64,000 nt of DNA from Candidatus Sulfopaludibacter sp. SbA3 (GTDB lineage Bacteria > Acidobacteriota > Terriglobia > Bryobacterales > Bryobacteraceae), in contig CAMDED010000005.1 of the NCBI GenBank assembly GCA_945893365.1, forward strand, positions 1 to 64,000. The letters run 5' to 3'. A program made the translations under genes and the position numbers. The notes below the pieces were generated by a model that was not told the origin of the DNA, did not search any database, and saw only the letters and a program-made list of their open reading frames with translations. Shown here in pieces: positions 15,343 to 50,834 of this stretch (its first letter is position 1; every line of letters begins with the position of its first letter).

Positions 15343-16269
15343 TCATTCATTTCCTCGCTCCCGAGGATCGACCCGCGCCCTACGGAGCTGAGCAAGCTCG
15401 GCACTTAGCTGGTAGATCGTTTCCGTGCGGTTGCGGTCGATGTGATTCCGTTCCGATTCAAGATCCGCAATCCGCTTCTTCAGTTTCGAAATCACCGACA
15501 AGCGCTCCTTGACCTCGATCTCCAGCCGGCAAATCAGCTCCTGGGGCTTCCGTCGCGCGAGCGCCACCTGGTCGATGAAGCTCTCGTATCCGCCCGCCGG
15601 TACGCAGAAGTCCGCCGCCGGATCGAGAGGCGAGTAGCCAAGCTCCGCCATCAAGTGGCCGTGGCACCTCCAAAAGAGCGATTCAACGTACTGGCTCCAC
15701 TCCTGAGTCGGCCTCCATCGATAGGGCGCCCGGTACTTGAAACGCGGGTCGGACTCAAAAACTTTGTCGAGGGCCGCGGCCCAAGGCAGGCAGGGACGAC
15801 GGATCCCGGTAAAGCCGGCGATCTCGCGCAGCGCGCCGTCCGGATCCTGAAGGACCGATTCATATTCGAGGAGCAAGGTAACCGCCCGCTCCGCCGGACG
15901 CCACGAACGGTAGTTCGAAGTCCAGTCTCCGTGATAGAAGTCGAATCCCAGGATCAGTTCGATTACGGTTCTTCCAAACTCGGGAAATTCCGCATTATGG
16001 TAATCATGGTAAGCGAGAATCGACTCCCGCCCGTTCCGCACAACGTAAATTGCAGGGTTGTCGTCTTGCGGCGGGAACTGCGTTCTAACGAAGACGATCT
16101 CGCCGGCCACCGCATTTTGCGCGTAAAAGCTTTGCCAGTCCTGCTGCCCACCGCCAGGGGCGGGGAACGACGGATTCCGGCGATGGTAAACGGGAGTACC
16201 AAAGCACTTCTCAATCAGATGCCAGACAGCGGCGCCCGCTATCGGATAGTAACCGAGCCAGACGATCAT
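15343..16269 (-). CDS. Degenerate sulfotransferase paralogue A1 with coiled-coil tail
   Basis: 308 aa from the ATG at 16269, which overlaps the stop of B1 (ATGA). The sulfotransferase fold is recognisable (IYVVRNGRESILAY, GDWTSNYRSW, LLLEYESVL, LFWRCHGHLMAELGY). Three signatures are lost. The 5'-phosphosulfate loop SYPRSGNT is YYPIAGAA, the catalytic KTH is RTQ, and the 3'-phosphate serine of ILSY is ILAY. The last 80 residues form a predicted coiled coil (ERLSVISKLKKRIADLE onward). An enzyme using PAPS is therefore unlikely; a binding or regulatory partner of B1 is the simplest inference. A longer upstream frame exists but lies over B1 and is not credible. Confidence 0.75.
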   Translation of the reverse strand: MIVWLGYYPIAGAAVWHLIEKCFGTPVYHRRNPSFPAPGGGQQDWQSFYAQNAVAGEIVFVRTQFPPQDDNPAIYVVRNGRESILAYHDYHNAEFPEFGRTVIELILGFDFYHGDWTSNYRSWRPAERAVTLLLEYESVLQDPDGALREIAGFTGIRRPCLPWAAALDKVFESDPRFKYRAPYRWRPTQEWSQYVESLFWRCHGHLMAELGYSPLDPAADFCVPAGGYESFIDQVALARRKPQELICRLEIEVKERLSVISKLKKRIADLESERNHIDRNRTETIYQLSAELAQLRRARVDPRERGNE

Positions 16270-17228
16270 GAGGTCACGGACTTCAGGCTGCGGGGCGCCG
16301 TCGGCATGGCGCCGGCGTCGCGAATGGCGATTTCCCCCTCTTTGGACTCTCGGGTTTTCAGCCGGACATCGCGCTCGGCGCGGAGCATGTTCATCTCGGC
16401 GGTAAGAGCTCTTAGCGCCAAGAGCCGGTCTCTCGCCGCGATCTCGAAAACCTCGCGTTCGTAGATCGCTCGCGAGGCGAACCACCGCAGGCTGGCGATC
16501 AGGTCCCTATAATCGGCTTCCGGGTCCGGGATAAAATCTCCTTCCGAATTTAGCGCGGGGTAACCTAGCCGATCCATCATGTTGCCGTGACAGGCCCAGA
16601 AGAGGCTCTCGATATGCCATGTCCAGAGCCTATCCGGCGCCCAGCCGGCGCTGCCCTGCCGGAAAAATTCAGGATCCAACTCCCGCAACTCGGAGAACGG
16701 ATTCCGCCACGGCTTTACGTCGCCCTGGAAACGAATGAAGTCCCCGATCCGGTCAATCTCGCATTCCGGGTTTTCCACCAGAGCCTCATAGCGGAGTAGT
16801 AGGGTGTCCGGCCGGCTGAGCGGATTCCAGGCGCGAAGGTGCGTCGACCAGTCGCGATAGGAATCGCAGCCGAGAACCAGATCGAGCACCGACCTCTCGT
16901 CGCCCGGAAAGAATTTCCGGCAATGGTGATAGTACGACAGAATCGCCTGACGGCCGTTGCGGACGACATAGATGCAGGGCTGATCGTCCTCCGGAGGAAG
17001 ATGGGTTTTCACGAACGCCTGCGACGGTCCTTCGCAGGCTATATCGTAGAACTCGGGCCAGTCCTCGGGCAGTTCCTTATGCCCGATCGTCTCCGTGATG
17101 AAGTCCTCGACAATGCCGAACGGGGTCGATTCACGCTCGTAGGTCTCGACGCCGAAACAGTGCTTGAGCATCGTTCGTACAAGTGTGTTACCGGAGCGGG
17201 GATAGGAGGCGATCCAGACGATCATCAA
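16266..17228 (-). CDS. Sulfotransferase-domain protein B1 (intact signature)
   Basis: 320 aa. It starts MMIVWIASYPRSGNT; the second ATG (17225) matches the start used in B2 and B3. It keeps the PAPS-dependent sulfotransferase motifs: 5'-phosphosulfate loop SYPRSGNT, catalytic KTHLPPEDD, and 3'-phosphate site YVVRNGRQAILSY with Arg and Ser eight residues apart. The family signature DWSTHLRAWNPL followed by LLLRYEALVENPE is also present. A C-terminal helix (about 265-300, ALRALTAEMNMLRAE) looks like a coiled coil. It is presumably cytoplasmic, since no signal or membrane segment is seen. The acceptor is unknown. It is translationally coupled to A1. Confidence 0.8.
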   Translation of the reverse strand: MMIVWIASYPRSGNTLVRTMLKHCFGVETYERESTPFGIVEDFITETIGHKELPEDWPEFYDIACEGPSQAFVKTHLPPEDDQPCIYVVRNGRQAILSYYHHCRKFFPGDERSVLDLVLGCDSYRDWSTHLRAWNPLSRPDTLLLRYEALVENPECEIDRIGDFIRFQGDVKPWRNPFSELRELDPEFFRQGSAGWAPDRLWTWHIESLFWACHGNMMDRLGYPALNSEGDFIPDPEADYRDLIASLRWFASRAIYEREVFEIAARDRLLALRALTAEMNMLRAERDVRLKTRESKEGEIAIRDAGAMPTAPRSLKSVTS

Positions 17229-17284
17229 GTAAACCCATTCAGGAGCAAGCCGGAACTTCCATTTCGGCTCCCGGCTTCTAGACT

Positions 17285-17290
17285 AGTATA
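17285..17290 (-). promoter_or_regulatory. Promoter-like -10 element upstream of sulfotransferase unit 1
   Basis: The hexamer TATACT on the minus strand, in GTCTATACTAGTCTAG, lies 57 bp upstream of the B1 start. The same hexamer occurs at 19358-19363 and 21409-21414, 57 and 59 bp upstream of B2 and B3. No convincing -35 was found. Confidence 0.5.
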
Positions 17291-17472
17291 GACTTAGCCG
17301 CTATTCTTTGCTGTGCTGCGTCATGTGTTCGCGGCCAGGTGCGCGGGCGTTCCAACGGTAAGCCGTTCCGGGGCGTCCGATCCGGCGATGACGACGGCAA
17401 GGCGAGCCGCGCGGCTCTCGGCGGCGGACGACGAAGCGGAGAGGGAAAATGAAGCCTGTTGAGGCGCGCGGA

Positions 17473-18360
17473 TCATCCCTTTCCCCTTTCCCGCGGACCC
17501 ACCCGCGCCCTACGGAGCAGAGCGAGCTCGGCGGTTAGTTGGTGGATGGTTTCCGTGCGCTTGTCATCGGTGTCCCGGAAGGCGCGGATCTGCCGATTCA
17601 AGGATCTCCGCTCCGTTTCAAGAGCGGCGATCCGCATCGCCAGGCCGCGAATCTCTTCTTGGGACTGGTTGATGAAGCGCTCGAATCCGTCCGTCGCGGG
17701 GCAAGAGTCCGATGTTGGATCGAGAGGCAGGTAGCCAAGCTGCCTCATCAAGGCGCCGTGGCGCCTCCAGAAGATCGCTTCAACGTACGGGCTCCACTCC
17801 TCAGGCGGCCGCCATTGATAGCGCCCTTCGCACCTGAAGCGCGCGTCGTCCCGGGAAAGTTTCTCGAGGGCTGCGCGCCAAGGCAGACAGGGACGCCGGA
17901 TCCCCGTAAATGCGGCGATCTCTCCCAGCGCGCCGTCCGGATCGCGAACGGCCGATTCGTATTCGAGGAGCAAGGTAGCCGCCCGCTCCTCCAAGCTCCA
18001 CGAACGGTGATGCGAAGACCAGTCTCCGTGGGCGTTGAATCCAAGAACCAGTTCAATCACGGTTCTCGACCCGGGATCTTTCGCATTGAGGTGGTCGTAG
18101 TAGGCGAGAATAGACTCCCGCCCGTCCCGCACAACGTAAATTGCAGGATTGCCATCGTCCGGCGGACTCTGCGTTCGAATGAAGACGATCTCGTCCGCGG
18201 CTGAAGATTGCCGGTAGAAGCGCTGCCAGTCTTGCTGCCCGCCATCCGGGGCTGGGAACGACGGATTCTGCCGATGGTGAACCGGAGTACCGAAGCACTC
18301 CTCAATCAGTCGCCAGACGGCGGCGCCCGCTACCGGATAGTACCCGAGCCAGACGATCAT
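17473..18360 (-). CDS. Degenerate sulfotransferase paralogue A2 with coiled-coil tail
   Basis: 295 aa from the ATG at 18360, overlapping the B2 stop (ATGA). It carries the same replacements as the other A paralogues: YYPVAGAA instead of SYPRSGNT, RTQSPP instead of KTHLPP, and ILAYYDH instead of ILSYFH. The rest of the fold is well kept (IYVVRDGRESI, GDWSSHHRSW, RPCLPWRAALEKL, WRRHGALMRQLGY). The tail is a coiled coil ending TIHQLTAELALLRRARVG, almost the same as in A3. The shared, specific loss of catalytic positions with otherwise good conservation argues for a retained non-catalytic role. Confidence 0.75.
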   Translation of the reverse strand: MIVWLGYYPVAGAAVWRLIEECFGTPVHHRQNPSFPAPDGGQQDWQRFYRQSSAADEIVFIRTQSPPDDGNPAIYVVRDGRESILAYYDHLNAKDPGSRTVIELVLGFNAHGDWSSHHRSWSLEERAATLLLEYESAVRDPDGALGEIAAFTGIRRPCLPWRAALEKLSRDDARFRCEGRYQWRPPEEWSPYVEAIFWRRHGALMRQLGYLPLDPTSDSCPATDGFERFINQSQEEIRGLAMRIAALETERRSLNRQIRAFRDTDDKRTETIHQLTAELALLRRARVGPRERGKG

Positions 18361-19301
18361 GAGGCCGCGGACTCCGGTCCGCGAGGTTCGCTTGGCCCGG
18401 CGATGGCTGCGTCGCGCATGGCGATTTCCCTCTCTCTGGCCGCGCCGCACTCGGCGCGGAGCATGTTCACCTCGGCGGCGAGCGCTTCGAGCGCCGAAAG
18501 CCGCTCTCCGGCCGCGATCTCGAAAACTTCGCGTTCATAGATCGCTCGGGCGGCGAACTTCCGCACGCTGATCATCAGTTCCTCATAATCGGCGTCCGGG
18601 TCCGTGATAAAATCCTGTTCCGATTTCAGCGCGGGATACCCTAGCTGGTCCATTATGTTGCCGTGACAAGCCCAGAAAAGGCTCTCGATATGCGCGGTCC
18701 AGAGTCTGTCCGGCGTACTCTCGATGCGGCCTCGCCGGAAGAAATCGGGAACCAGCTCCCGCAGCTCGGGAAACGGATTCCGCCATTGCCCGACATCGCC
18801 GTCGAAACGGATAAAGTCCCTTATCCGATCGATCTCGCGCACCGGACTTTCCACCAAAGCCTCATAGCGGAGTAGAAGAGCGCCCGGCCGGCCGAGAGGA
18901 TTCCAGGCGCGAAAGTGCGTCGACCAGTCGCGATAGGTATCGCAGCCGAGAACAAGCTCGAGCATCGTCCTCTCCTCGCCCGCGAAGAATTTACAGTAAT
19001 AGTGAAAGTACGACAGAATCGCCTGACGGCCGTTGCGGACGACATAGATGCATGGCTGATCGTCCTCTGGAGGAAGATGGGTTTTCACGAAGACCGGCGA
19101 CGGTCCTTCGCAGGCTTTCTCGTAGAACTCGGGCCAGCTCTCGGGCAAGTCCTTGTGCCCGGTGGTCTTCGCGATGAAGTGCGGGACAATGCCGAACGGA
19201 GTCGATTCACGCTCATAGCTTTCGACGCCAAAACATTGCTCGAGCATCGTTCGCACAAGAGTGTTACCCGACCGGGGATAGGAGGCAATCCAGACGATCA
19301 T
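18357..19301 (-). CDS. Sulfotransferase-domain protein B2 (intact signature)
   Basis: 314 aa. SYPRSGNT is at residues 7-14, KTH at 73-75 (H75 would be the catalytic base), and R89 and S97 form the 3'-phosphate site. A DWSTHFRAWNPL segment and LLLRYEALVESP follow. The C-terminal 50 residues (ERLSALEALAAEVNMLRAE) form a coiled-coil helix. It is closely similar to B1 and B3 along its length, so the array arose by duplication of a B-A unit. Its start matches MIVWIASYPR of the other B proteins. It probably transfers sulfate from PAPS to a carbohydrate, lipid or peptide; which one cannot be read from sequence. Confidence 0.8.
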   Translation of the reverse strand: MIVWIASYPRSGNTLVRTMLEQCFGVESYERESTPFGIVPHFIAKTTGHKDLPESWPEFYEKACEGPSPVFVKTHLPPEDDQPCIYVVRNGRQAILSYFHYYCKFFAGEERTMLELVLGCDTYRDWSTHFRAWNPLGRPGALLLRYEALVESPVREIDRIRDFIRFDGDVGQWRNPFPELRELVPDFFRRGRIESTPDRLWTAHIESLFWACHGNIMDQLGYPALKSEQDFITDPDADYEELMISVRKFAARAIYEREVFEIAAGERLSALEALAAEVNMLRAECGAAREREIAMRDAAIAGPSEPRGPESAAS

Positions 19302-19357
19302 GCGATAAACCCGTAAGTGCGTGCCGGAACGTCCATTTCGGCTTCGGCGTCTAGATT

Positions 19358-19363
19358 AGTATA
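19358..19363 (-). promoter_or_regulatory. Promoter-like -10 element upstream of sulfotransferase unit 2
   Basis: TATACT on the minus strand, within GTCTATACTAATCTAG, 57 bp upstream of B2. The surrounding leader, including a CCATTTCGGC block on the plus strand, is shared with unit 1, showing the promoter was duplicated with the genes. Confidence 0.5.
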
Positions 19364-19485
19364 GACCTTGCCGCCACCCTCTGCCGACAATCGAATACAA
19401 ACTCGGGACTGGCTGAATCGGCCGCGCCAGGCCAGCCTCGGAAAGAAGGGGTTAGTCGCGAGGTTACTACTGCCATCTAAAGCGA

Positions 19486-20370
19486 TCATCGCTTTCCGTC
19501 TTCCCTGGGACCAACCCGCGCCCTGCGGAGCAAGGCGAGCTCGGCGGTAAGCTGGTGGATCGTCTCCGTGCGCTTAGTGTTAATGTCGCGCAGGGTGCGG
19601 ATTTCCCAATTCAAGGATGCCTGCGCCGATTCAAGAGCCTCGATCCGCTCCGACAGCAGGCGAATCTCGTCCTGGGGCATCGGCGGCGCGATCGCCAACG
19701 GGTCGAGGCAAAAGTCGGACGTCGGATCGAGAGGCGAGTAGCCAAGCTCCGTCATCAACGCGCCGTGGCACCTCCAAAAGAGCGACTCGACATGCGGGCT
19801 CCATACCTGAGTCGGCCGCCATCGATAGGGACCCCGGCACTTGAAACGAGGGTCGTCCTCGGAAAGTTTGCCGAAGGCGGTGCGCCAAGGCAGGCAGGGA
19901 CGCCGGATCCCGGTAAAGGCGGTGATCTCCCGTAGAGCGCTGGACGGGTCCTGAAGGACCGATTCGTATTCAAGGAGCAGCGTAGCCGCCCGCTCCGCCG
20001 GGCTCCACGAACGGTAGTGCGAAGTCCATTCTCCGTCGAAGTTGAAACCCAGAATCAGCTCGCTTACCGTCCTAATCTCATCGGAATGTTTCGCATTTGC
20101 GTGTCTGTAGTAGGCGAGAATAGACTCCCGCCCGTCCCGCACAACGTAAATTGCGGGATTGCCGTCCTGCGGCGGGAACTGCGTTCTGACGAAGACGATC
20201 TCGGCGGTGGCCGAAGATTGGTCGTAAAAACGCTGCCACTCCCGCTGACCGCCATCGGCGGCTGTGAACGACGGATTCAGGCGATGGTGAACGGGACAGC
20301 CAAAGCATTCGGAAATCAGATGCCAAACCGCCGCTCCCGCTATAGGATAGTAAGTGAGCCAAACGATCAT
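19486..20370 (-). CDS. Degenerate sulfotransferase paralogue A3 with coiled-coil tail
   Basis: 294 aa from the ATG at 20370, overlapping the B3 stop (ATGA). The 5'-phosphosulfate loop is YYPIAGAA (residues 7-14), the catalytic motif is RTQ (62-64), and the 3'-phosphate motif keeps R78 but has A86 in place of serine. The body is otherwise family-like, with FDGEWTSHYRSW, LLLEYESVLQDP and LFWRCHGALMTELGY. The tail (about 225-290) is heptad-like and ends TIHQLTAELALLRRARVG. The A proteins resemble each other more than they resemble the B proteins, so they split from B before the array expanded. Confidence 0.75.
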   Translation of the reverse strand: MIVWLTYYPIAGAAVWHLISECFGCPVHHRLNPSFTAADGGQREWQRFYDQSSATAEIVFVRTQFPPQDGNPAIYVVRDGRESILAYYRHANAKHSDEIRTVSELILGFNFDGEWTSHYRSWSPAERAATLLLEYESVLQDPSSALREITAFTGIRRPCLPWRTAFGKLSEDDPRFKCRGPYRWRPTQVWSPHVESLFWRCHGALMTELGYSPLDPTSDFCLDPLAIAPPMPQDEIRLLSERIEALESAQASLNWEIRTLRDINTKRTETIHQLTAELALLRRARVGPREDGKR

Positions 20371-21350
20371 GAGGCCGCGGCCTTCGGTCCGTGAGCTTCG
20401 GTCAGCCCGGCGTTGGCGGCGTCGCGCACGGCGATTTCCCGCTGTTCGGCCCCAAGCGCTTTCATCCGGACGCCGCGCTCGGCGCGGAGCCTGTTCTTCT
20501 CGGCCGTGAGAGTCCGCAGGGCGAAAAGTCGCTCGTTCGCCGCGATCTCGAGTACGTCGCGCTCGTACATGACCCGGGCGGCAAGCGATCTCACACTGGT
20601 TATCAGGCCCCTATAATCGGCTTCCGGGTCCCGGATGAAATCCTTTTCCGCGTTCAGCGCGGGGTACCCTAACCGATCCATAAGGCCGCCGTGAGCAGCC
20701 CAGAAAATGCGCTCCATATGGCAAGTCCAAAGTCCGTCGGGAGCCCACACGGTGCGGCCTCGCTGGAAGAACCCGGTATCCAGATCCCGCAGCCTGGAAA
20801 ACGGATTCCGCCAAGGCTTCGCGGCATGCTGGGAACGAATGAAGCGCCGGATCCGGTCAATCTCGCATTCCGGGTTTTCCACCAAAACCTCATAGCGGAG
20901 CAGAAGGGTGTTCGGGCGGCTGAACGGATCCCAGGCGCGAAAGTGCGTCGACCAGTCGCGATAGAAATCGCAGCCGAGAATCAGTTCGAGCACCGTCCTC
21001 TCCTCGGCGGGAAAGGATTTGCGGGAACGGCGATAGTACGACAGAATCGCCTGGCGGCCGTTGCGGACGACATAGATGCACGGTTGATCGTCCTCGGGAG
21101 GAAGATGCGTTTTCACGCAGACCGGCGACGGCCCAACGGCGTCTTTCTCGTGGAACTCGCGCGCGTCCCCGGACCACTCCTCTTGACCGATGGCCTCCGC
21201 GAGAATCGCCGCTCCCGAGATCTGTCGCGTGGAGCCTTGCGCAACTCCCACCGGCTTCGATTCGTAAGAATCGACGTCAAAGCAATGCTTGAGCATCATT
21301 CGCACAAGAGTATTGCCAGAGCGCGGGTAGGAGGCGATCCAGACGATCAT
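20367..21350 (-). CDS. Sulfotransferase-domain protein B3 (intact signature)
   Basis: 327 aa and slightly longer than B1 and B2, because of an insertion (about residues 36-55) before the helix that leads to the catalytic strand. It keeps SYPRSGNT, VKTHLPPEDD, YVVRNGRQAILSY, DWSTHFRAWDPF and LLLRYEVLVENPE. The C-terminal helix (about 270-320) is coiled-coil-like. It is the promoter-proximal gene of the first unit read on the minus strand. The family reaction is PAPS plus acceptor to sulfated acceptor plus PAP. Acceptor and cellular role are unknown. Confidence 0.8.
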   Translation of the reverse strand: MIVWIASYPRSGNTLVRMMLKHCFDVDSYESKPVGVAQGSTRQISGAAILAEAIGQEEWSGDAREFHEKDAVGPSPVCVKTHLPPEDDQPCIYVVRNGRQAILSYYRRSRKSFPAEERTVLELILGCDFYRDWSTHFRAWDPFSRPNTLLLRYEVLVENPECEIDRIRRFIRSQHAAKPWRNPFSRLRDLDTGFFQRGRTVWAPDGLWTCHMERIFWAAHGGLMDRLGYPALNAEKDFIRDPEADYRGLITSVRSLAARVMYERDVLEIAANERLFALRTLTAEKNRLRAERGVRMKALGAEQREIAVRDAANAGLTEAHGPKAAAS

Positions 21351-21659
21351 CAGTGAACTTAGTCGAGAGCAAGCTGGAATTCCCGATCTTGGCCCTGCCT
21401 TCCCGATAAGTATAACTCAGCGGCGATCTTATGCTGCCGAGCGGCCGCGTCAATCGCGTTCGCGTCGATGAAGCCGTTCGGAGGGCCAGGCAGCGTCGCT
21501 CTCCGGCCGTGGCTTGGCCGGATACGCAAAAGCATCGTTCCAGCACGCGGAGGATGACAGGAAGAACCGGCCGTCGCCGATCGCCGGCGGCCCCCAGCCG
21601 TTCCTGAAGACGCCGTGGGCGGTTGCGATACACTTATACAGGTGACATCCGCATTTCCT
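21351..21659. promoter_or_regulatory. Divergent intergenic region with a TATACT element
   Basis: This 309-bp gap separates B3 (minus strand) from the DUF1549/1553 gene (plus strand). It holds the minus-strand TATACT at 21409-21414, 59 bp upstream of B3. The part from about 21450 to 21640 stays open on the minus strand (HGVFRNGWGPPAIGDGRFFL...) but has no start or ribosome-binding site. It may be a gene remnant. No other feature is seen. Confidence 0.4.
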
Positions 21660-40468: not shown

Positions 40469-42169
40469 CTACTTGCCTGCGGCCGCGGGGCCGGACTTCG
40501 CCACGATTCCCTTCCCTTCTTCAACCGTGATGAACTGGTTCGCCGCGATATCGGTGAGTTTCTGTTTCGCACCGCTTGGCCACTCAATCTCAAGAGACTT
40601 TACCACGGGATCGCCGCCCAGCCCAAACGTGACGGCCAGATCGCTCTGGGACGCGTAGCTCGATCCGCTTCGAACCGAATTCCACTGCTTCCCGGATGCG
40701 CTTTCAATGCGGACGATCGTTCCAATCGCGCTGCGGTTTGATTTGGTTCCTAGCGCCTTCACGCACAGGAACTTGTTCTTATTGCCGCCGTCGTTGCGAA
40801 ACAGGTACGCCGGACCGTGGTTGCTGGTCATCAGCAGATCGAGATCGCCGTCGCGGTCGATGTCCGCGTAAGCGGCTCCGCGGGCGACGATCGGGCGATT
40901 GAACTCAGGGCCCATGCCCGCGCCCGCGTTTTCAAACTTTCGCTTGCCTAGATTATGGAAGAGCAGCGGCGGTTCCTTATAGGAAACCTTCGGCTGAACG
41001 CGTCCGATCTCCTCTTCGATATGGCCGTTGGCCGCGAAAACATCGAGATAACCGTCCAGATCGTAGTCGAAGAAAAAGACGCCGAACGCAAGCGTAAGCA
41101 GACTTGCGCGTCCAATGGTCGAAGTCGGCGCCTCGTCCACGAACAATCCCGTACCCTCGTTGTGGTAGAGGCCGATCATCTGATTCGAAAAATTCCCCAC
41201 GAGCAGGTGGGGCCGCCCGGAACGGTCGTAGTCCCCGGTATCGACGCCCATTGCACCGCGCGCCACGCCGTCTTCGCCGAATGCCACTCCCGCCGACATG
41301 CCTTCTTCGCTGAACGTTCCATTCTTATTGTTTCGATAGAGCTTGTTCGGCTGCGTGTCGTTCGCGACGAACATATCCGGCCAGCCGTCGCTGTTGTAGT
41401 CGAAGACCGTGATACCGAGCGACTTGGAGGTGTTGTCGCCAACACCGGCTTTCGTGCTCACGTCTTCAAACTTGCCGCCACCGAGGTTATGGTAGAGCTT
41501 CGACTGCGTGCCCTTGTAAGACTCCGGCGTGCAGTACGATTTCGTCGCGCCGTCAAGCGAACACCAGAGGTCGCCCTTCGCCGTCCACTGGACATAGTTG
41601 GCGACGAACACGTCGACCTTCCCGTCTTTGTCGTAATCGAGCCACGCCACGCTGGTGGAAAAGTTGGCGTTGTTGATGCCGGACATCTTCGTCGCGTCTT
41701 TGAACTTCCCGCCGCCCTCATTGTGGAACAGGCGGTCGCCCTCAAGAGCCGTAATGTAGACGTCGTCCTTGCCATCGTTGTCGTAGTCGGCAACCGCGGC
41801 GCCAAGACCGTACATCTCGACGTCGAGGCCGCTTCCCGCGGTGATATTGGTAAACGTCCCGTTCTTGTTGTTCTTGTAAAGAGCGTGGAGCGACCTTCGC
41901 CCGCGCGGCGTCCAGTCCTTACTGTTGACGAGGAGAACGTCGGCCCATCCGTCGCCGTCGGCATCGAAGAACGCGCCGCCCGATCCCAGGGTTTCGGGTA
42001 GAAACTTCTTTCCGGCCCGTCCGCTGTTATGCGTGAACTTTACGCCCGACGCCGCGGTAATATCCGTGAACTGTACACGGCCGGCCGGTGCATTCGCCGC
42101 TATGACGGCTACGGCCGTGGTTACGGCCGCGATGCTCAGTAGGGTCTTCTTTCGTCCAAGTCTCATCAC
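40469..42169 (-). CDS. CRTAC1-family secreted FG-GAP/ASPIC protein (566 aa)
   Basis: 566 aa with an N-terminal membrane anchor or signal (LLSIAAVTTAVAVIAANAPA). The body is a chain of FG-GAP/VCBS beta-propeller repeats with calcium-binding DxDxDG loops (DADGDGWADVLL, DYDNDGKDDVYI, DYDKDGKVDVFV, DYNSDGWPDMFV, DYDLDGYLDVFA). The C-terminal ASPIC/UnbV domain begins near NRSAIGTIVRIES. Such propellers are cell-surface or periplasmic and often bind ligands or partners; enzymatic function is unproven. It is the last gene of the seven-gene operon and overlaps the multiheme gene (ATGA at 42166-42169). Confidence 0.88.
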   Translation of the reverse strand: MMRLGRKKTLLSIAAVTTAVAVIAANAPAGRVQFTDITAASGVKFTHNSGRAGKKFLPETLGSGGAFFDADGDGWADVLLVNSKDWTPRGRRSLHALYKNNKNGTFTNITAGSGLDVEMYGLGAAVADYDNDGKDDVYITALEGDRLFHNEGGGKFKDATKMSGINNANFSTSVAWLDYDKDGKVDVFVANYVQWTAKGDLWCSLDGATKSYCTPESYKGTQSKLYHNLGGGKFEDVSTKAGVGDNTSKSLGITVFDYNSDGWPDMFVANDTQPNKLYRNNKNGTFSEEGMSAGVAFGEDGVARGAMGVDTGDYDRSGRPHLLVGNFSNQMIGLYHNEGTGLFVDEAPTSTIGRASLLTLAFGVFFFDYDLDGYLDVFAANGHIEEEIGRVQPKVSYKEPPLLFHNLGKRKFENAGAGMGPEFNRPIVARGAAYADIDRDGDLDLLMTSNHGPAYLFRNDGGNKNKFLCVKALGTKSNRSAIGTIVRIESASGKQWNSVRSGSSYASQSDLAVTFGLGGDPVVKSLEIEWPSGAKQKLTDIAANQFITVEEGKGIVAKSGPAAAGK

Positions 42170-45051
42170 TGCGAACCTCCGCCTGCCGTCTCCGCGCGCA
42201 CTTCCCGCTTCACCTGGTTCGACGGTGCGGGAGCCTTCTTCACCCCGCCCGCCGGCGCCTTGAGCGAAACGCTTTCATGATCGTGGATTGTTTGCCGCTC
42301 GTTATTATCTTCCGGACTTATCAAACGCCGCTTACCGGTAATCGATTGCGCCGACTCTTCGACTTTGAACCGCCGGAACAGGATCTCCTCACGGGCCGCT
42401 TTCTCCGCGTTACCCAGGCCGCGGTGGCACAGCATGGCCGTGTAATGCATCTGCACGTCCTCCGGATCGATCAGACACACACGATCCAGAATCTTGATCG
42501 CCTCCGCATACTCGCGTTTCAGAAACAGAATACGCGCGATCTGATTTAGCACCACGCGGTCCTTGGGGTATTTCGACTCGGTGGTGCGCAGCGAGGTGAG
42601 CGCGGCGTCATAGTCGCCGTCCGCCTTTTCTATGAGCCCCTTGAAATAGTAGATACGCCCAAGCTTCGGATCGGTCTCAAGAGCCTTCTTGATGAAAGGC
42701 TTGGCGGCTTCGGTCTCGCCTTCCTGGATCAACGCCCGCGCGACGTTCAACCAGCCATCCGCGTAGCCCGGCTCGGCCTCCGTCACCTTCCTGAACGCGA
42801 ACTCGGCGGCTTTCAGATCGCCCTGAAGGAGCAGGCCGATGCCCCAATCGTTCCATCTCTCCCGGTCCTTCTTCTCCGCAACCGGCTTCCACTGGGTCTC
42901 GCCGTCGCCGAGCGGGATCTCCGTCTTCGCTTCGGCCAGCGTAAGGATGGGAAGATTGGGGATTTCGTCCTTGATCTGTCCCGAGACGTTCTTCGGAATA
43001 TTCGCCTTATCGAACGAGTACTGGAGGCTGTTGTGATTCTTGCTCACCAGCGCCGCTTCGTCCTGGCCCGGTTTCGGCTGTCCGGCGTAGGCGAATTGCG
43101 TGTAATAGTGGGAGAACTTGCGGTAATTGAGTTTTGTCTCAAAGGTGATCGGTCCCTTCGCGTCCTTCGGAACCTTTATCCGGTAGTGGACCGTATCCGC
43201 CGCCCCGGGCTGGATCGCGCGAGCGTAGAGCACGCTGCGGGCCTGCCACGCGTTGCGCTTGTTGATCGGGTTGCCTTCGCCGTCAAGCTGATACGCCCGG
43301 TAAAAATGGGCGCCGGGTTCAACCGGGCCTTTCCCGCCGTCGTCCACTTGGCCGCTCCAGTAGATGATCTTGCCGGTCGCATCCTTGGCCTGCAATTCGA
43401 GCCAGATGTCGAACGAGTCAAGCGTGCCGCCCGGGAAGAAGTGCCCGATCTTCCGGGTGCGGACCACCACATCCACGCGCGCCTCGGAACCCGGCTTCAG
43501 ATGCACGCCGGACCTGTCGATGGGGGCTGCGATCTTGCCAACTTCGCGAATCAACACGGCGCCCGATTGCTCCGCTTCCTCGCCCACCGGCACGCTCGAC
43601 ATCAACTGCGGCCCTTCCGCCCCCGCCCGCCGGACCATCGCAGTCTGACCCGGCTGATCCTCGACCGGCGTTACAGCGAAGATGTCCACCGTAATGAAGC
43701 CGGATTTCAGGAATCGCTCCGTCGTGCCGAGCTGCGCGTGATCGCGGTTCGCCGTCGGTACGGCCATATTGGCCCCGGGGAACCGGTGCGAGTGAACTTC
43801 ACCTCCGCGATTGCCCGGATCGTTCGATTTCACGAGCGGCATATGGCATTCCCCGCAGGTCTGCCCTTTAGGCGGATAGTAGAACGACCGCGCGCCCTGC
43901 CCGAAGCCGCTCGCCTGCCAGTTGTCGTAATCGTTGAATCCGCGGAACCACCGATAGCTGTTTACCGGCACGTCGAGGTGGACCTTGTGACAGCTCGAGC
44001 AGAATTCGGAGGTGTCCAGCCGCATGAACGGCTTCATGAACGCCTGCTTGTGCGGGACCGGGTTCAGGAACGTAATGAAGTGGTCGAACGCGCGGATGTA
44101 CTTGTTCTTGCTGGTCGCGATCTCGTGCAGCGGCGGATATTCGATTGTGAATCCGCCGTTGCCCATCGAGCTGTCCACGTGGACGATCGAGTGGCACGAC
44201 GTGCAGGCGAGGCCCGCATGCGCCTCGGGAGTATCGATCTGATCCTTGATCGGCTTCTCGAAACGGCCGTTGAAGAACACCGCGTGATCGTGGCAGCCCG
44301 CGCACCACTTACTCGGTTGCGGCCCAACCACCGATTGCATGTACTCGATCGATTTCCGGTAGAACTGATTGTTGAACGAAGCGAAGTGGTGCATCGAGCT
44401 CTTCCACTGCTCAAAGATGTCTTTGTGGCAGGCGCCGCAAGCTTCCGAGTCCATGAAGAAGTTCGAGGGTATAATCCCGCCGACGTTCGTTTTCGCCGAT
44501 GACGGATGGAAAGGAGACTTCGGCCCGCCGCCTTCCTCAGCCATCGAAGTGGGAACGATCATCGGATTTCTGATCCGGTGCGAAGCATCCGGGAACACGC
44601 GGCGGAAGGCCGCGGTCGCCGCCGGGAACAGCACCAGCAGGATCATCGAATACTGAAACGCCGTCTTGAAAGTCGCCCAACCACCGCCGTGCTGCCGGGC
44701 CATCCGCCACACATAGGGGACGAGGCACACCACTCCGAAACCTGCCGAGGCAATGTGCGACCAAAGCACCCACTTGTAGTCGGTGGTGTTGCCTACCTTG
44801 ACCAGATACAGAGCCAGAACCGTCGAAATCGCGAAGAAGCCCGCACTGGCCGCTATGCCGCTTCGCAGGTCTTCCCTGTTGCGCAGCACGTAGAACAGCG
44901 CCAGCGCCAACACGACGCCCGACGCCAGGTGGTAGATGACGTTGGTGAAGTAGAAGATCGTAGGAGAGGAGAACGCGGCGATGTAGCTCGTGTTCACCAA
45001 CAGCACGATAAAGAAAATCCCAATCCACTTGAGCAAGTTCGAGTTTTTCAT
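42166..45051 (-). CDS. Membrane-anchored pentaheme cytochrome with TPR domain
   Basis: 961 aa. Residues 1-150 hold about four or five membrane helices. A periplasmic region with five CxxCH heme sites follows: CGACH (205-209), CAGCH, CTSCH, CSSCH and CGECH, with extra histidines that could be distal ligands. A beta-rich domain lies around 500-680, then three or more TPR-like helix pairs (about 740-870) and a charged, Pro/Lys-rich tail. It is probably an electron-transfer or oxidoreductase protein of the inner membrane facing the periplasm. It is one of two non-propeller anchors of the operon. The reaction is unknown. Confidence 0.85.
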   Translation of the reverse strand: MKNSNLLKWIGIFFIVLLVNTSYIAAFSSPTIFYFTNVIYHLASGVVLALALFYVLRNREDLRSGIAASAGFFAISTVLALYLVKVGNTTDYKWVLWSHIASAGFGVVCLVPYVWRMARQHGGGWATFKTAFQYSMILLVLFPAATAAFRRVFPDASHRIRNPMIVPTSMAEEGGGPKSPFHPSSAKTNVGGIIPSNFFMDSEACGACHKDIFEQWKSSMHHFASFNNQFYRKSIEYMQSVVGPQPSKWCAGCHDHAVFFNGRFEKPIKDQIDTPEAHAGLACTSCHSIVHVDSSMGNGGFTIEYPPLHEIATSKNKYIRAFDHFITFLNPVPHKQAFMKPFMRLDTSEFCSSCHKVHLDVPVNSYRWFRGFNDYDNWQASGFGQGARSFYYPPKGQTCGECHMPLVKSNDPGNRGGEVHSHRFPGANMAVPTANRDHAQLGTTERFLKSGFITVDIFAVTPVEDQPGQTAMVRRAGAEGPQLMSSVPVGEEAEQSGAVLIREVGKIAAPIDRSGVHLKPGSEARVDVVVRTRKIGHFFPGGTLDSFDIWLELQAKDATGKIIYWSGQVDDGGKGPVEPGAHFYRAYQLDGEGNPINKRNAWQARSVLYARAIQPGAADTVHYRIKVPKDAKGPITFETKLNYRKFSHYYTQFAYAGQPKPGQDEAALVSKNHNSLQYSFDKANIPKNVSGQIKDEIPNLPILTLAEAKTEIPLGDGETQWKPVAEKKDRERWNDWGIGLLLQGDLKAAEFAFRKVTEAEPGYADGWLNVARALIQEGETEAAKPFIKKALETDPKLGRIYYFKGLIEKADGDYDAALTSLRTTESKYPKDRVVLNQIARILFLKREYAEAIKILDRVCLIDPEDVQMHYTAMLCHRGLGNAEKAAREEILFRRFKVEESAQSITGKRRLISPEDNNERQTIHDHESVSLKAPAGGVKKAPAPSNQVKREVRAETAGGGSQ

Positions 45052-45118
45052 AGGTTGTCCATGCTAGCCCCAGGGAAGCCTCCGAACAATAATAGGAACA
45101 CACTAGATTCGCCGATTT

Positions 45119-48100
45119 TCACTTCCGGCGCTCCGCAAGCGGCCGCAGCAACCTCAACGCGGGCCGCGTATTGAACTCCTTCCGATACTCCGGCTGCGGA
45201 AAGCGTTCGTTCGCCGCATAAGGATACCCGGCCATGCCGTGGAACGGAAGCGGCTCCACGGTCTGAGAAAAAGCCGTGTTCGCGTCGCCGTCCTTTGCCC
45301 ATCCGTCCACGTAAAGCAGGAAATCCCGCTTCCAGCCGTCGGCTAGCGCCGGCAGCGAATCCGCGCGGTATGTCAAGCGAAGCTCGTCTCCCGATCCCAT
45401 CAGGACCATCCGGTCGTCCAACAGATTGAGCAATTCGCCGACATCGCCGTAACGGGTATATTTTCCCGGCGTCGGATTCCACATCGAACTGGGCATCCAC
45501 TTCGCGTAAAGGAAGCTTTCGGGCTGCTTGCGTTCGGGATGAATCACCGGCTTCGAGAATCCCCGGAACCGCAGCTCCGCCGTTCCGGCAGCCAGCTCGG
45601 TCAACTGCGTCCGGGGCGTCCCGGTCTCGCCGGTCAGGAAGATCTCGTCCCAGTAGACGCAGAGGTTGGTGACGATCCGCACCTCTCGCGAATCCGAAAG
45701 AAACCTGCCGGTCAGGTCCACCGCAATCGTTTTGGGTTTTCCGGCGGGAATCCCCATGTCGGAAATGACCGTTTGCCAACGGCCGGCCTTGTCTTTCACC
45801 TGCAGGTACGGGAATACCAGACCGTCTTTGCTCTCCTGAGACGCTCCCAGGAACGTGCTGCCATCGGCCCAATCCACCCACCCATTCAGGATCAGAACGG
45901 CCTTGTTGTCCACGGCGTGCCCGGTAAAATCGAGATCCACGTGGTGCAATTCGGCCACGCCGGAATAATCCCGCTTGAATCCGTCCGGATAAACGCGGTC
46001 GCGTTTCGCAATCCGCGCCAGCACGTCGCGGCCGCGATCGTCGCGCGCAGCGGTGGGATAGACGCGCTTCGAAGCTCCATACAGCCGGAACTCGGGAAAC
46101 GGAGGCGACTTGAACTTGTCGTTCGTGAAAATTTCGGTTTCCGCCGGGTGGTCCACCGCAATCAGTTTGATCTGATCGAGATAAGAAACTTCGCGCAGCT
46201 CTTCGGTGATCCGAATTTCGTACCGGCCGTTTTCAAGCTTGAGCGATTCTCCGGGAATCTGCACGTATTCGTCGTGATCGACCGGAAAATACTTGCCGTC
46301 GCCCGAACTCGCGCCCAGCGGCGCGACGCCCAAAACGTCCGTGATGAACTCGAACTCCTTGCCGTTCCAGGTGAAGATCATTGGGCAGGAGCCGGACAGA
46401 CGCTGCGCTTCCTTATAGGCGAAAGCCTTGCCGGCCGCTTGCTTCGGCTCGTTCTGGATCAGCCCGTTCGGCCACGTGATACGGACCGTGTCGGCCTCCT
46501 TGTACGTCCTAACGCCGAACACCAGAGGCACGCCCTCATAGATCTTCTTTTGATAGCGCGCGCCGGCTTTGACTTCCACTTCCGCGCCCGGCGCGAGCTT
46601 CATATTCTTCACACCGCTGAGCGCGATCCTGATCCACCCGTTCCTCGTCTCGGTCTCGTTACGCAGCAGCCACGCGGAGCCGTCCGCCGCGGCCAGGACC
46701 AGATCGGAGCGTCCGTCGGCGTCGAAATCGGCAGCCGCAATCGCGGCGCCTGCATGCTTCAAGGCCTTGACGGCGGCGAAGCCTCCGGCGCCCAGATTCC
46801 GGGAGACCCCTGTCACCGAGACCAGATCGGCGATCCCGCGATTTTCGAGATCCACAAAAGTCACCGGCCCTTTCGCGCCTGCTGGAGAGGCGCCGGCGGT
46901 GAGTTTTCCTTCGCGATTGGACACGAGTGTCATGCCCGAGGGCGCGCCGGCTACAAGATCCATCCAGCCGTCGTTGTCGGCATCCTGCGCCACAAGCGAG
47001 GTCGCGCCGGCGGGAATCGCGACTTGGGGAATGGCTTCGAACTTGCCCGCAAATTTGTCCCTATAGAGCACTCCGCCGCGGTCCGCATACGCGACCACCA
47101 GATCCGTGCCGTTCGTGTCCGCGATGAGCTCGTACTGAGTGCCCGCGGCCGCGTTGCCCTTGACGAAAGGGAAGTCCGCGGTCTGATCGCTGAACCCGGC
47201 TGCGCCATTGTTGCGGATGAGCGCCGAGTTTGCGCCCAGGAGAAAAAGATCCAGGTCGTAGTCGTGATCGTAGTCGAGCCAAACAGCCTTAGCGTACGCT
47301 CCCGCTGGAGGCTGCACCGCGTTCTTCTGAAAAACGCCTTTCTGATTCACAAACAGCGTGACTCCGGTCTTCGTCAACACGGTCAGGTCCGCAAGGCCGT
47401 CGTTATTGAAGTCCGCCGCCGTTACCGAAATCACGTCCTTCACTGTTGCCAGCGCCGGATTGTCCATCTTCGCCGCACCGCCCTTGAATATCTGAACGCC
47501 ATTGGCGCACCATACCGCCGCATCCGGCCGTCCGTCGCCGTCGGCGTCGAGAACCGTCACGCCCGCGGTCTTCGCGTCGAGCCCCTCGGCAAGCTTCTTT
47601 TCACTCCACTTCAATTCCGGACCGGCGCCCAAGTCCTCCTTTGAATTCGCCGCATCGAGCGTTTCATGGATCTCGGCGAAGAAACTCCATTCCAGATCCT
47701 CGGGAATGGCGGCCCCCGCCTGGCGTTTCTTGATCTCCTGGAATTCCTTCAGCTCGCGAGCCGCGTCCGCGGGACGGTTCGAGCCGCGATACGCGTTATA
47801 GAGCTGGAAATGCGGACCCGCAAGATTCGGATCGATCTTCGAAGCGATCTCGAACTGCTTCATCGCGGCGTCCGCTTTGCCGCCGAGCTTGTACAGCACG
47901 CCGAGGTTGTAGTGCGTCGCGGGCTCTTCCGGTTCGAGCTTGCTCATCTGCTCGAACTGCTGAATCGCCTTGTCGTACTCGGAGTCTTTCTTGTACTGCA
48001 CGCCCAGATTGAACCAGGTGTGAGGGATCTTCGGATCCTGCTTTTGCGCCTTCTCGATTTCCGCGACGCCCTCTTTCGTCTTGCCTGCGCGCAGCAGCGC

Positions 48101-48349
48101 AAGTCCGTAGTTCAGCCTTTCGCGCGCGGAGTCCGGGGCCATGTCGAGAGCCTTCTTAAACTCGTCGACGGCCTGAACCTGCGTCGTCGGATTCTCATAG
48201 AAAGCCTTGCCCAGGTTGCGGAGGTGCCAGAGGCGATCCGCCGCCGTACCACTCAGATCCGCGCCGCTCAGCAACAGGAGCGCGGCCGAACCCGTCGCCG
48301 CGGCAAGCACCCAGGGAAGGACGCCTTGGAATTTCGAAGGCCGCCTCAT
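45119..48349 (-). CDS. TPR plus VCBS-propeller protein (1076 aa)
   Basis: 1076 aa. A single membrane anchor (about 12-30) is followed by at least five TPR motifs (about 50-215; WFNLGVQYKKDSEYDKAIQQ and HYNLGVLYKLGGKADAAMKQ are clear). An FG-GAP/VCBS propeller follows (about 245-560; DADGDGRPDAAV, DFDADGRSDLVL), then an ASPIC-like part and a long unassigned C-terminal region rich in beta strands (about 640-1076) beginning GSCPMIFTWNGKEFEFITDV. The combination suggests a periplasmic scaffold that recruits other operon products through TPRs. It overlaps its upstream neighbour by 4 bp; a 67-bp gap precedes the cytochrome gene. Confidence 0.82.
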   Translation of the reverse strand: MRRPSKFQGVLPWVLAAATGSAALLLLSGADLSGTAADRLWHLRNLGKAFYENPTTQVQAVDEFKKALDMAPDSARERLNYGLALLRAGKTKEGVAEIEKAQKQDPKIPHTWFNLGVQYKKDSEYDKAIQQFEQMSKLEPEEPATHYNLGVLYKLGGKADAAMKQFEIASKIDPNLAGPHFQLYNAYRGSNRPADAARELKEFQEIKKRQAGAAIPEDLEWSFFAEIHETLDAANSKEDLGAGPELKWSEKKLAEGLDAKTAGVTVLDADGDGRPDAAVWCANGVQIFKGGAAKMDNPALATVKDVISVTAADFNNDGLADLTVLTKTGVTLFVNQKGVFQKNAVQPPAGAYAKAVWLDYDHDYDLDLFLLGANSALIRNNGAAGFSDQTADFPFVKGNAAAGTQYELIADTNGTDLVVAYADRGGVLYRDKFAGKFEAIPQVAIPAGATSLVAQDADNDGWMDLVAGAPSGMTLVSNREGKLTAGASPAGAKGPVTFVDLENRGIADLVSVTGVSRNLGAGGFAAVKALKHAGAAIAAADFDADGRSDLVLAAADGSAWLLRNETETRNGWIRIALSGVKNMKLAPGAEVEVKAGARYQKKIYEGVPLVFGVRTYKEADTVRITWPNGLIQNEPKQAAGKAFAYKEAQRLSGSCPMIFTWNGKEFEFITDVLGVAPLGASSGDGKYFPVDHDEYVQIPGESLKLENGRYEIRITEELREVSYLDQIKLIAVDHPAETEIFTNDKFKSPPFPEFRLYGASKRVYPTAARDDRGRDVLARIAKRDRVYPDGFKRDYSGVAELHHVDLDFTGHAVDNKAVLILNGWVDWADGSTFLGASQESKDGLVFPYLQVKDKAGRWQTVISDMGIPAGKPKTIAVDLTGRFLSDSREVRIVTNLCVYWDEIFLTGETGTPRTQLTELAAGTAELRFRGFSKPVIHPERKQPESFLYAKWMPSSMWNPTPGKYTRYGDVGELLNLLDDRMVLMGSGDELRLTYRADSLPALADGWKRDFLLYVDGWAKDGDANTAFSQTVEPLPFHGMAGYPYAANERFPQPEYRKEFNTRPALRLLRPLAERRK

Positions 48350-50082
48350 TTCTTGAGACCTTGCCCTTCGGTAACCAGGGAGATCCTGTTGACCGGAACG
48401 GAGATCTTCTCCACTTTCCCGCTCGGCCAGCGAACCTCGGCCGACTCGATCTTGGCCGCCTGTCCGATGCCGAAATGCAGGCGCTTCGAGCTCTGTCCGG
48501 AATAGCCGTTGCCGCCTTCCACTTCGCGGATCAACGTCTGCCCGCTCGAAGTCTTCAGTGTGACGCGCGCGCCTATCGCGTCACGGTTCGACTTCCCGGC
48601 GCCCGATCCAAATGCGCCGGTTAACTTCAGCTGCACCCAGTTCCCCGCCCCTTCCGTCTGGCTCCGGTACAGCAGCATCGGCTGGTCGGCATTGGTCTGA
48701 AAAATGTCGAGCCGGCCGTCGTTGTCGAAATCGCCCACCCCCAAGCCGCGTCCATCCAGGTCGTTATCGACGCCGGCCTCCGCTGAAATCTCCTTGAACG
48801 CCTGCGTGCCGAGGTTGCGGAACAACTTCTTCTTCTGATATCCGCTCCAGGTCATTTCGCCGATGTTCGGCCAGTTGCGCACATCGGTAAAATCGATCCC
48901 CGGTGTCGTGATCATATTGACCAGCACCGGAATGTAGTTGTCCTTGCTCGCCGACCGCAAACCGTTGACCACGAAAATGTCCTGCCAGCCGTCGTTATCG
49001 AAATCGCCGAACTTCGCCGCCCAGCCCCACAGAGTGGCGCAGGTGCCGGTTTCCTTCGAGAGGTCCGTGAACGTGCCGTCGCCGTTGTTGTGCCACAGCA
49101 TGTTGCACTCTTTCATGTATTCGTCGGTGATGTTGGTGACATAGATGTCGAGCAGTCCGTCGTTGTCATAGTCGGCGATGTCGGTGTTCATGCCCTTCTT
49201 CGTGTCGATTCCGATCGCGGCTTCCGTGGCGTCGCGAAACGTGCCGTTGCCGTTGTTGAAATAGATGCGGTCGGTGCCGTAGTCGCAGGCTAGATAGACA
49301 TCCTGGAGACCGTCGTTGTTCAGATCGCCGTGCCCGATATCGAGCGTCCAGCCGGTATGCTTCCCGAATCCGGCTTTTTCGGTGACCTCCGTGAAGCTCA
49401 TCCCGCCGTTGTTGCGCCACAATGTGACGCCGCCGCCGTTGATCGCGTTATCCAGATCGTTGGGAAGCACGTGAGGCGTCTTCAGATCGAGCAGGTTCTC
49501 GGGCTTAAAATAGTTGCCGAACATCAAATCGAGATAGCCGTCGTTATCGTAGTCGAACGCCACCGCGGAGATCGTGTTCCCGAACTTGTTCAGCCCGGAA
49601 ACCTTCGGATCCACCGGCTTGAATTTTCCGTCTCCCTCGTTGTGGTAGAGAATCGGCGTGCCGAAACGGCCGATGAGAAGATCCTGTTTCCCGTCGTTGT
49701 CGTAGTCGAACCAAAGCGCGTCGGCGACGATCGAAAGCGGGTCGTTCCCTTCCGCGACGCCGGCCTTCGCCGCAACGTCCGTGAAGTTGAAATTTCCGTC
49801 GTTGTGAAACAGGTGATTGAGCTTGCCCTTGTCGGAATCGGTCACGAAGACGTCGTCAAGGCCGTCGTTGTCGTAGTCGCCCACGGCGACGGCCGCCCCG
49901 CCCGAGGTGAACATTCGCAGCACGTCGGCGCTCTTTCCGTTGAACCGGCGCGTGTGGTGCGTAACCCTCACGCCGCTCTTCTCGCCCACTTCCTGGTAAC
50001 GGATCTTCGATAGCCCGCCGTTCCAGGCCCAAACGCCCAATGGCGCCAGTATCAATGCCCCAATCATGAGAGTTCGTTTCAC
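48346..50082 (-). CDS. CRTAC1-family secreted FG-GAP/ASPIC protein (578 aa)
   Basis: 578 aa from a GTG at 50082 overlapping the upstream TAG by one base. A signal anchor (MIGALILAPLGVWAWNGG) is followed by repeated FG-GAP loops (DYDNDGLDDVFV, DYDNDGKQDLLI, DYDNDGYLDLMF, DLNNDGLQDVYL, DYDNDGLLDIYV, DFDNDGWQDIFV) and an ASPIC/UnbV end with NRDAIGARVTLKT and LHFGIGQAAKIESAEVRWPS. It shares the DITDEYMKECNMLWHN-type segment with the 575-aa paralogue, so the two are close relatives. Calcium binding by the acidic loops is expected; ligand or substrate unknown. Confidence 0.88.
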   Translation of the reverse strand: MKRTLMIGALILAPLGVWAWNGGLSKIRYQEVGEKSGVRVTHHTRRFNGKSADVLRMFTSGGAAVAVGDYDNDGLDDVFVTDSDKGKLNHLFHNDGNFNFTDVAAKAGVAEGNDPLSIVADALWFDYDNDGKQDLLIGRFGTPILYHNEGDGKFKPVDPKVSGLNKFGNTISAVAFDYDNDGYLDLMFGNYFKPENLLDLKTPHVLPNDLDNAINGGGVTLWRNNGGMSFTEVTEKAGFGKHTGWTLDIGHGDLNNDGLQDVYLACDYGTDRIYFNNGNGTFRDATEAAIGIDTKKGMNTDIADYDNDGLLDIYVTNITDEYMKECNMLWHNNGDGTFTDLSKETGTCATLWGWAAKFGDFDNDGWQDIFVVNGLRSASKDNYIPVLVNMITTPGIDFTDVRNWPNIGEMTWSGYQKKKLFRNLGTQAFKEISAEAGVDNDLDGRGLGVGDFDNDGRLDIFQTNADQPMLLYRSQTEGAGNWVQLKLTGAFGSGAGKSNRDAIGARVTLKTSSGQTLIREVEGGNGYSGQSSKRLHFGIGQAAKIESAEVRWPSGKVEKISVPVNRISLVTEGQGLKK

Positions 50083-50834
50083 TAGTTTGTCCAGATCTCA
50101 ATGAGATTCGTATCCACGCGCTTGTTGGGATCGAGCACGTCGTCGATGTAGGCCTTCAGATCGTCGCCGTCCTTGGACAAGCGCGCTTTCAGGCCTGGAT
50201 TGTCCGGAAACAAGGAGAGCCCTTCCTTCCAGATCGCCTTTGCCTTCTCGATATTTTCCATTTTCCAGTAGCCGTCGCCAAGAGAAACGAAAGCTCGCGA
50301 ATGATAGCCCTTCTTCGCGCCGTCGGCCTTCTGAATCGCCATGGCTCTTTCCAGATCGGCCACGCCCAAATGAGCTCTCCCGAATACCTTTGGCCAATAC
50401 AAGTAACTGTTGCCGCGGGTGTAGAGAGCGATCCAACTCGGTTTGATCTCGATCGATTTCGTGAAAAATGAAAGCGCCGTGTTCGCAAGAATCACCTGCG
50501 TGATCGCACCCGAAGCGGGGATCTTGTCGACGTAAGCGAACCCGTAATTCAGAAATGCGCTTGAGGCGTTTTGATTGTCCGCGGTCAGTTTTTCAAAGAA
50601 TTTGATCGAGCGGTCGTACTCCTTCGCCTGGATCACGGCCTGGCGGTATTCGCTGCCGAATCGAATGTTGTCCGGCTCCGCCGATAGCGCCGATTCAAGC
50701 TTTCCGAGCGCGTTTGAGTAGTCCTTTGTGGCGAGAGCCTTCATTCCCGCCTGATAGTCGGCCTCGCCCGAAGCGGCAAACGCCGCGCCGGCCGCCAGTC
50801 CGGCAATCGCCAAACACCCGATCAGTTTCTTCAT
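50082..50834 (-). CDS. Secreted TPR-like protein (250 aa)
   Basis: 250 aa with a clear signal peptide (MKKLIGCLAIAGLAAGAAFA). The rest is helical, with TPR-like repeats: ADYQAGMKALATKDYSNALG, then EYDRSIKFFEKL, and a later SLGDGYWKMENIEKAKAIW. It lies between two CRTAC1 genes and is coupled to both (ATGA at 50831-50834, TAGTG at 50082). Within the operon it is the smallest soluble protein and may act as an adaptor for the propeller proteins. No enzyme motif is seen. Confidence 0.8.
   Translation of the reverse strand: MKKLIGCLAIAGLAAGAAFAASGEADYQAGMKALATKDYSNALGKLESALSAEPDNIRFGSEYRQAVIQAKEYDRSIKFFEKLTADNQNASSAFLNYGFAYVDKIPASGAITQVILANTALSFFTKSIEIKPSWIALYTRGNSYLYWPKVFGRAHLGVADLERAMAIQKADGAKKGYHSRAFVSLGDGYWKMENIEKAKAIWKEGLSLFPDNPGLKARLSKDGDDLKAYIDDVLDPNKRVDTNLIEIWTN

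Follow-up and report, generated by a model that had tools for sequence, protein, structure and literature searches.

Three tandem pairs of sulfotransferase-like genes, one member of each with an altered PAPS site, in an acidobacterial genome

Pseudoenzymes regulate active relatives in many enzyme families (reviewed in PMC5106787). In trypanosomatids, the activity of deoxyhypusine synthase is raised 3000-fold in complex with a dead paralogue (PMC3663545). The nearest sulfotransferase case found is SULT4A1, the human orphan cytosolic sulfotransferase, which keeps the PAPS motifs and the active-site histidine and is distinguished by its short lid loop (PMC11275347). Considered here is an array of three gene pairs within a 64,000-nucleotide stretch (“the window”) of a draft Candidatus Sulfopaludibacter assembly, in each of which an apparently intact sulfotransferase gene (B) is followed by a paralogue with altered active-site motifs (A). 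On balance, each B-A unit is read here, with somewhat better than even confidence, as a two-subunit sulfotransferase in which B would carry out the transfer and A would be a non-catalytic partner.

Organization of the array

The array lies on the minus strand at 15343-21350, where a check of the ORFs in the window found six, all intact and complete, arranged as three tandem B-A units (Table 1). All three B/A junctions read ...CTCATGATCGT, with the A start overlapping the B stop as ATGA, as an earlier note on this DNA had described. Identities are 64-74% among the B proteins, 64-72% among the A proteins, and ~34-36% between A and B. An element of ~75 bp, with an invariant TATACT, is located ahead of each B gene; because it is common to the three units, the unit was duplicated together with it. 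A genome search found no further copy of this element anywhere in the source genome. Each unit probably has a promoter of its own, a consensus promoter scan being weak evidence on this point.

Table 1. Positions of genes, overlaps and upstream elements of the array within the window
Feature	Position	Strand	Description
Upstream element, unit 3	21351-21421	-	Conserved; has TATACT
B3	20367-21350	-	Sulfotransferase by motif content; SYPRSGNT, KTH, R..S intact; helical tail; Sulfotransfer_1 E 5.4e-17
ATGA overlap, B3 stop/A3 start	20367-20370	-	
A3	19486-20370	-	Putative pseudo-sulfotransferase; YYPIAG-AA, RTQ, R..A; C-terminal helix 233-285
Upstream element, unit 2	19302-19372	-	Conserved; has TATACT
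B2	18357-19301	-	Sulfotransferase by motif content; motifs intact; helical tail 235-300
ATGA overlap, B2 stop/A2 start	18357-18360	-	
A2	17473-18360	-	Putative pseudo-sulfotransferase; YYPVAG-AA, RTQ, R..A
Upstream element, unit 1	17226-17299	-	Conserved; has TATACT
B1	16266-17225	-	Sulfotransferase by motif content; motifs intact; tail present
ATGA overlap, B1 stop/A1 start	16266-16269	-	
A1	15343-16269	-	Putative pseudo-sulfotransferase; YYPIAG-AA, RTQ, R..A; tail with heptad pattern

The GC content of the array is 0.606, compared with 0.607 for the window; third-codon GC of the array genes (0.70-0.75) is slightly below that of their neighbours (0.76-0.81). The neighbouring genes in the window encode a metal-efflux-type system, DUF1549/DUF1501-type proteins and an SDR, and no recognised glycan or export genes were found among them. 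Elsewhere in the window, a run of minus-strand genes at 40469-52672 encodes proteins with FG-GAP/UnbV_ASPIC repeats and TPRs, and adjoins a pair of ketosynthase genes, an HMG-CoA-reductase-like gene and a patatin gene.

Active-site residues and selection

The roles of the P-loop, the KTH motif and the PAPS-binding serine are established in SULT biochemistry. SYPRSGNT, KTH and R-8-S are present in all three B proteins, as had been claimed; aligned to SULT1A1, SYPRSGNT corresponds to TYPKSGTT, KTH to KTH, and Ser97 to the PAPS-binding serine. The three A proteins all have YYP[IV]AG-AA, RTQ and R-8-A at these places, with a one-residue deletion in the P-loop of every copy. The A motifs are therefore those given in the earlier note, except that its “R..A” is better described as a retained arginine with loss of the serine. 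Against the Sulfotransfer_1 (PF00685) profile, with its curated cut-off of 22 bits, the B proteins score 62.5-64.7 bits. The A proteins reach 22.8-30.1 bits, matching the second half of the profile only, in a region that excludes the P-loop. On motif content, B is best read as a sulfotransferase.

For a broader comparison, a reference set of 14 homologues with intact motifs (the three B proteins and eleven from other genomes) was used to define 45 nearly invariant columns, nine of them PAPS or catalytic positions (R10, S11, G12, N13, T14, K73, H75, R89 and S97 in B2 numbering). A departs from 14 of the 45 in all copies, comprising seven of the nine PAPS/catalytic columns and seven of the 36 others (Fisher p = 0.002, a guide value since homologues are not independent); with the former hit more often than the latter, the pattern of loss does not look like chance. 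The P-loop Arg, Ser, Asn and Thr, the catalytic His and the PAPS Ser are replaced in all three copies. The change of K73, the lysine of KTH, to Arg is conservative; those at the remaining lost columns are not. Retained are the P-loop glycine (Gly12), the PAPS-site arginine (Arg89) with an adjoining GR, and Tyr-Glu in the LLLxYE strand. The substituted residues, too, are conserved among the A copies.

From these changes A would be unable to use PAPS. It might instead be a sulfotransferase-family enzyme that carries out group transfer from another donor or with a rearranged active site, and its intact predicted fold, the retained R89, P-loop Gly and Tyr-Glu, and a K73 altered no further than to Arg would all suit such an enzyme. 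With the P-loop Arg/Lys, Ser and Thr, the catalytic His and the PAPS Ser gone, however, and the P-loop one residue short in every copy, this is very improbable.

Selection was compared among the copies of each gene. Pairwise dN/dS (NG86) is 0.34-0.49 for A, with 95% bootstrap limits within 0.24-0.68 that exclude 1 in every pair, and 0.37-0.51 for B, with limits within 0.27-0.70; whole-gene synonymous distances of 0.36-0.53 are unsaturated. On these figures the constraint on A is about equal to that on B, and values of 0.3-0.5 are relaxed relative to typical housekeeping genes for both. The purifying selection on A that the earlier note had predicted is thus found. There are no stops or frameshifts in any of the three A copies. 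Neutral drift simulated at a comparable divergence, 0.15-0.25 substitutions per site, puts ~4-6 stops into each A gene and leaves a given copy open in about 0.2-2.6% of the simulations, whereas every A frame here is open. Early decay of the A genes as recently formed pseudogenes is therefore extremely improbable: their catalytic residues are gone and their dN/dS is above that of strongly constrained genes, but the dN/dS limits exclude neutrality at the same level as in B, the several disruptions per copy expected without selection are missing, and the replacement residues are conserved. The loss of PAPS and catalytic residues, dN/dS below 1, uninterrupted frames and a predicted sulfotransferase fold together support the proposal that A is a pseudoenzyme kept up by selection.

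No dN/dS above 1 was found among the B copies, with the proviso that pairwise averages could mask a few selected sites, and the case for diversification of specificity among the units is for this reason weak.

Folds, relatives and genomic context

AlphaFold models of A3 and B2 were made from 17-row alignments of window proteins and proteins from the relatives' loci, with pLDDT of 84 and 86, respectively. The best matches to both are SULT-fold structures, at Z 13.0-14.8 for A3 (including Teg12; ~175-200 residues, rmsd 3-4 Å) and Z 14.0-16.1 for B2. With Foldseek the TM-scores of A and B are modest, because the lid and the tail lower them; a second aligner confirmed the matches of the domain. 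Each model ends in a long C-terminal helix of at least 50 residues (233-285 in A3, 235-300 in B2). The long coiled-coil tail previously ascribed to A is thus borne out as a predicted helix with a heptad pattern, although a long C-terminal helix is also predicted for B. The heptad score of the A tails was matched by 1, 5 and 0 of 200 shuffles for the three copies; that of the B tails is weaker, with 21, 26 and 138 of 200 shuffles matching it. A and B are perhaps coupled by their tails, but the weak heptad signal in B makes direct helix-helix pairing uncertain.

Among the genomes searched, A occurs in this one draft assembly only. No other A was found in 150 genomes of the family with an A profile, in 237 with a B profile, or in a 396-genome sample of the phylum; a pattern scan found no A relatives in 84,980 species genomes and none in viral contigs. 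On one IMG/VR contig classed as viral (L107:4947-6992), a sulfotransferase domain is joined in a fusion with a methyltransferase-like region and a further one. Close B-type matches among the 237 family genomes are limited to the source genome and a same-genus Acidobacteria MAG (G061), and the phylum sample added no B-type match at E 1e-20. In the wider genome collection, B relatives occur in Cyanobacteriota, Pseudomonadota, Planctomycetota, Verrucomicrobiota and others, and this patchy spread suggests that the B-type gene arrived horizontally. No A-type neighbour lies beside B relatives at the loci examined; the A-B pairs found amount to the three units in one genome. A Marispirochaeta neighbour (L046) considered as a motif-less partner was rejected, since it has YPKCGNTW and is not A-type.

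The G061 contig (SYKU01000074.1) encodes a single homologue of B (L010:590-2515; 52% identity), in which ERLxLIxxL repeats make up a helical tail of 400 residues. The gene begins with a TTG codon that overlaps the stop codon of the ORF before it (L010:3-593), which has similar repeats and is truncated by the contig edge. No recognisable A was found in this genome; a truncated sulfotransferase N-terminus on its contig C39 was rejected as an A ortholog, being closer to B and having an intact P-loop. Should this fragment and the B homologue belong to a single pair, both members of that pair may ancestrally have been active enzymes.

A 41-row tree places A, B and the G061 gene in one clade with the Fortiea homologue and seven other relatives (support 100/99). 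The A proteins form a single clade with a stem of 1.2-1.5 changes per site and inner branches of ~0.1-0.2; an AU test neither favours nor rejects placing A as sister of the G061 gene, or of the B proteins of the window by themselves (p ~0.18). A likely history is that a B-like gene with a helical tail was duplicated, that a burst of change removed the active site of one copy, which then came under constraint, and that the entire B-A unit was later triplicated with its upstream element. A stem of this length followed by constraint would also fit neofunctionalisation, in which A has taken on a new role that needs no PAPS, such as glycan binding or sensing, and acts independently on the sulfotransferase fold, co-expressed with B but outside any complex with it. 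The phosphate-binding arginine (R89 in B2) and the adjoining GR are kept, and some ligand pocket may remain. However, A and B have been duplicated strictly 1:1, overlap by ATGA in every unit and have tails alike in kind, all of which favours a shared function, and independence of A from B seems rather unlikely.

The neighbourhoods of several B relatives may bear on substrates. The Fortiea homologue (L053) follows a polysaccharide-type ABC transporter and precedes glycosyltransferases; this sulfotransferase and the next two glycan enzymes (L053:5001-10494) share a KFWKLRTxWFxLKK-like tail. In Nitrotoga, the B relative overlaps a GSCFA-family gene by one base (L029:3577-5927), the two having similar ERLxLI coiled-coil-like tails, and a glycosyltransferase family 2 gene comes after the B relative. 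Related glycosyltransferase neighbours are found at two further loci (L028 and L031), and a more distant homologue in Nitratidesulfovibrio (L024) is among glycosyltransferases, near cysC. With several relatives in other phyla positioned within glycan clusters, surface glycans are the probable substrates of the B family; this gives indirect support to the cell-surface polymers suggested in the earlier note, although the array's own surroundings have no recognised glycan genes. In some B-family clusters the neighbours have similar tails, and such tails may mark partners within them.

PAPS synthesis genes, for which the earlier note had suggested a search, are present: cysD and cysN on contig C2, and cysC adjoining cysH on contig C55, so the source genome should be able to make PAPS. 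No PF01747-type ATP-sulfurylase was found in the source genome, which has the CysD/CysN type instead. The last ~130 residues of CysN (L125:1432-3513, plus strand, contig C2) resemble an APS-kinase domain without the GKS P-loop (TVWLSGV-----EEIA). This CysN resembles a CysNC fusion whose CysC half is dead, the separate CysC on contig C55 being intact.

The motifs, the overlaps, the preservation of A and the triplication are read directly from sequence, and the folds come from prediction; the activity of B, its binding to A, its acceptor and A's loss of PAPS use are inferred. B would bind PAPS and transfer sulfate, most likely onto a carbohydrate; A, a paralogous pseudoenzyme incapable of PAPS-dependent transfer, would help B as a stabilising, activating, acceptor-binding or scaffolding subunit. 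The two would be co-produced through the start/stop overlap, and their C-terminal helices may hold them together. The Nitrotoga case, where partners with like tails overlap within a glycan cluster, also favours such a two-subunit enzyme. The stronger proposal that the sulfotransferase is active only as a heteromer with its dead paralogue, giving three parallel complexes that differ in acceptor choice or regulation, is possible but doubtful. The anatomy would be identical if A instead restrained B, as a dead partner that binds B or the acceptor and limits sulfation, so that the pair would form a regulated switch and not an obligate holoenzyme; pseudoenzymes elsewhere do regulate active relatives (PMC5106787). 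Sequence does not tell activation from inhibition; two proteins produced 1:1 from a shared transcript, on which A has no control of its own, would make a poor switch, and restraint by A is considered improbable.

Comparison with known systems

The nearest solved structures to A and B are the glycopeptide sulfotransferases StaL, Teg12 and Teg14 and mammalian SULTs. All are single-gene enzymes, for none of which is a dead partner known to us, and the matches of the models to them end before the helical tail. The B homologues of Fortiea, Nitrotoga, Nitratidesulfovibrio and G061 (~35-52% identity) have the P-loop, KTH or KSH, R..S and, in many cases, helical tails, but the loci examined differ from this one in having no adjacent A-type dead paralogue. 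If B-A units do work as two-subunit sulfotransferases and B needs A, enzymes of this type would be missed when substrates of bacterial sulfotransferases are sought with single proteins. The array has a dead copy, a live copy and their coupling within one small operon, in three natural replicates, and would allow a direct test.

The earlier note knew of no described array of enzyme and pseudoenzyme sulfotransferases, and a search of the open-access full-text literature likewise found no description of such a pair, only SULT4A1 and general reviews. A has lost P-loop residues, His and Ser, whereas SULT4A1 retains its motifs (PMC11275347); A is also encoded beside B, whereas SULT4A1 is not an operon partner of an active paralogue. 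The trypanosomatid deoxyhypusine synthase resembles the proposed A/B pairing in being an enzyme with a catalytically dead paralogue (PMC3663545); it belongs to an unrelated family, whereas A and B form a bacterial operon in three tandem copies. The principle of an enzyme with a dead paralogue is already known, and its proposed occurrence in a PAPS sulfotransferase would be new within the open-access literature searched.
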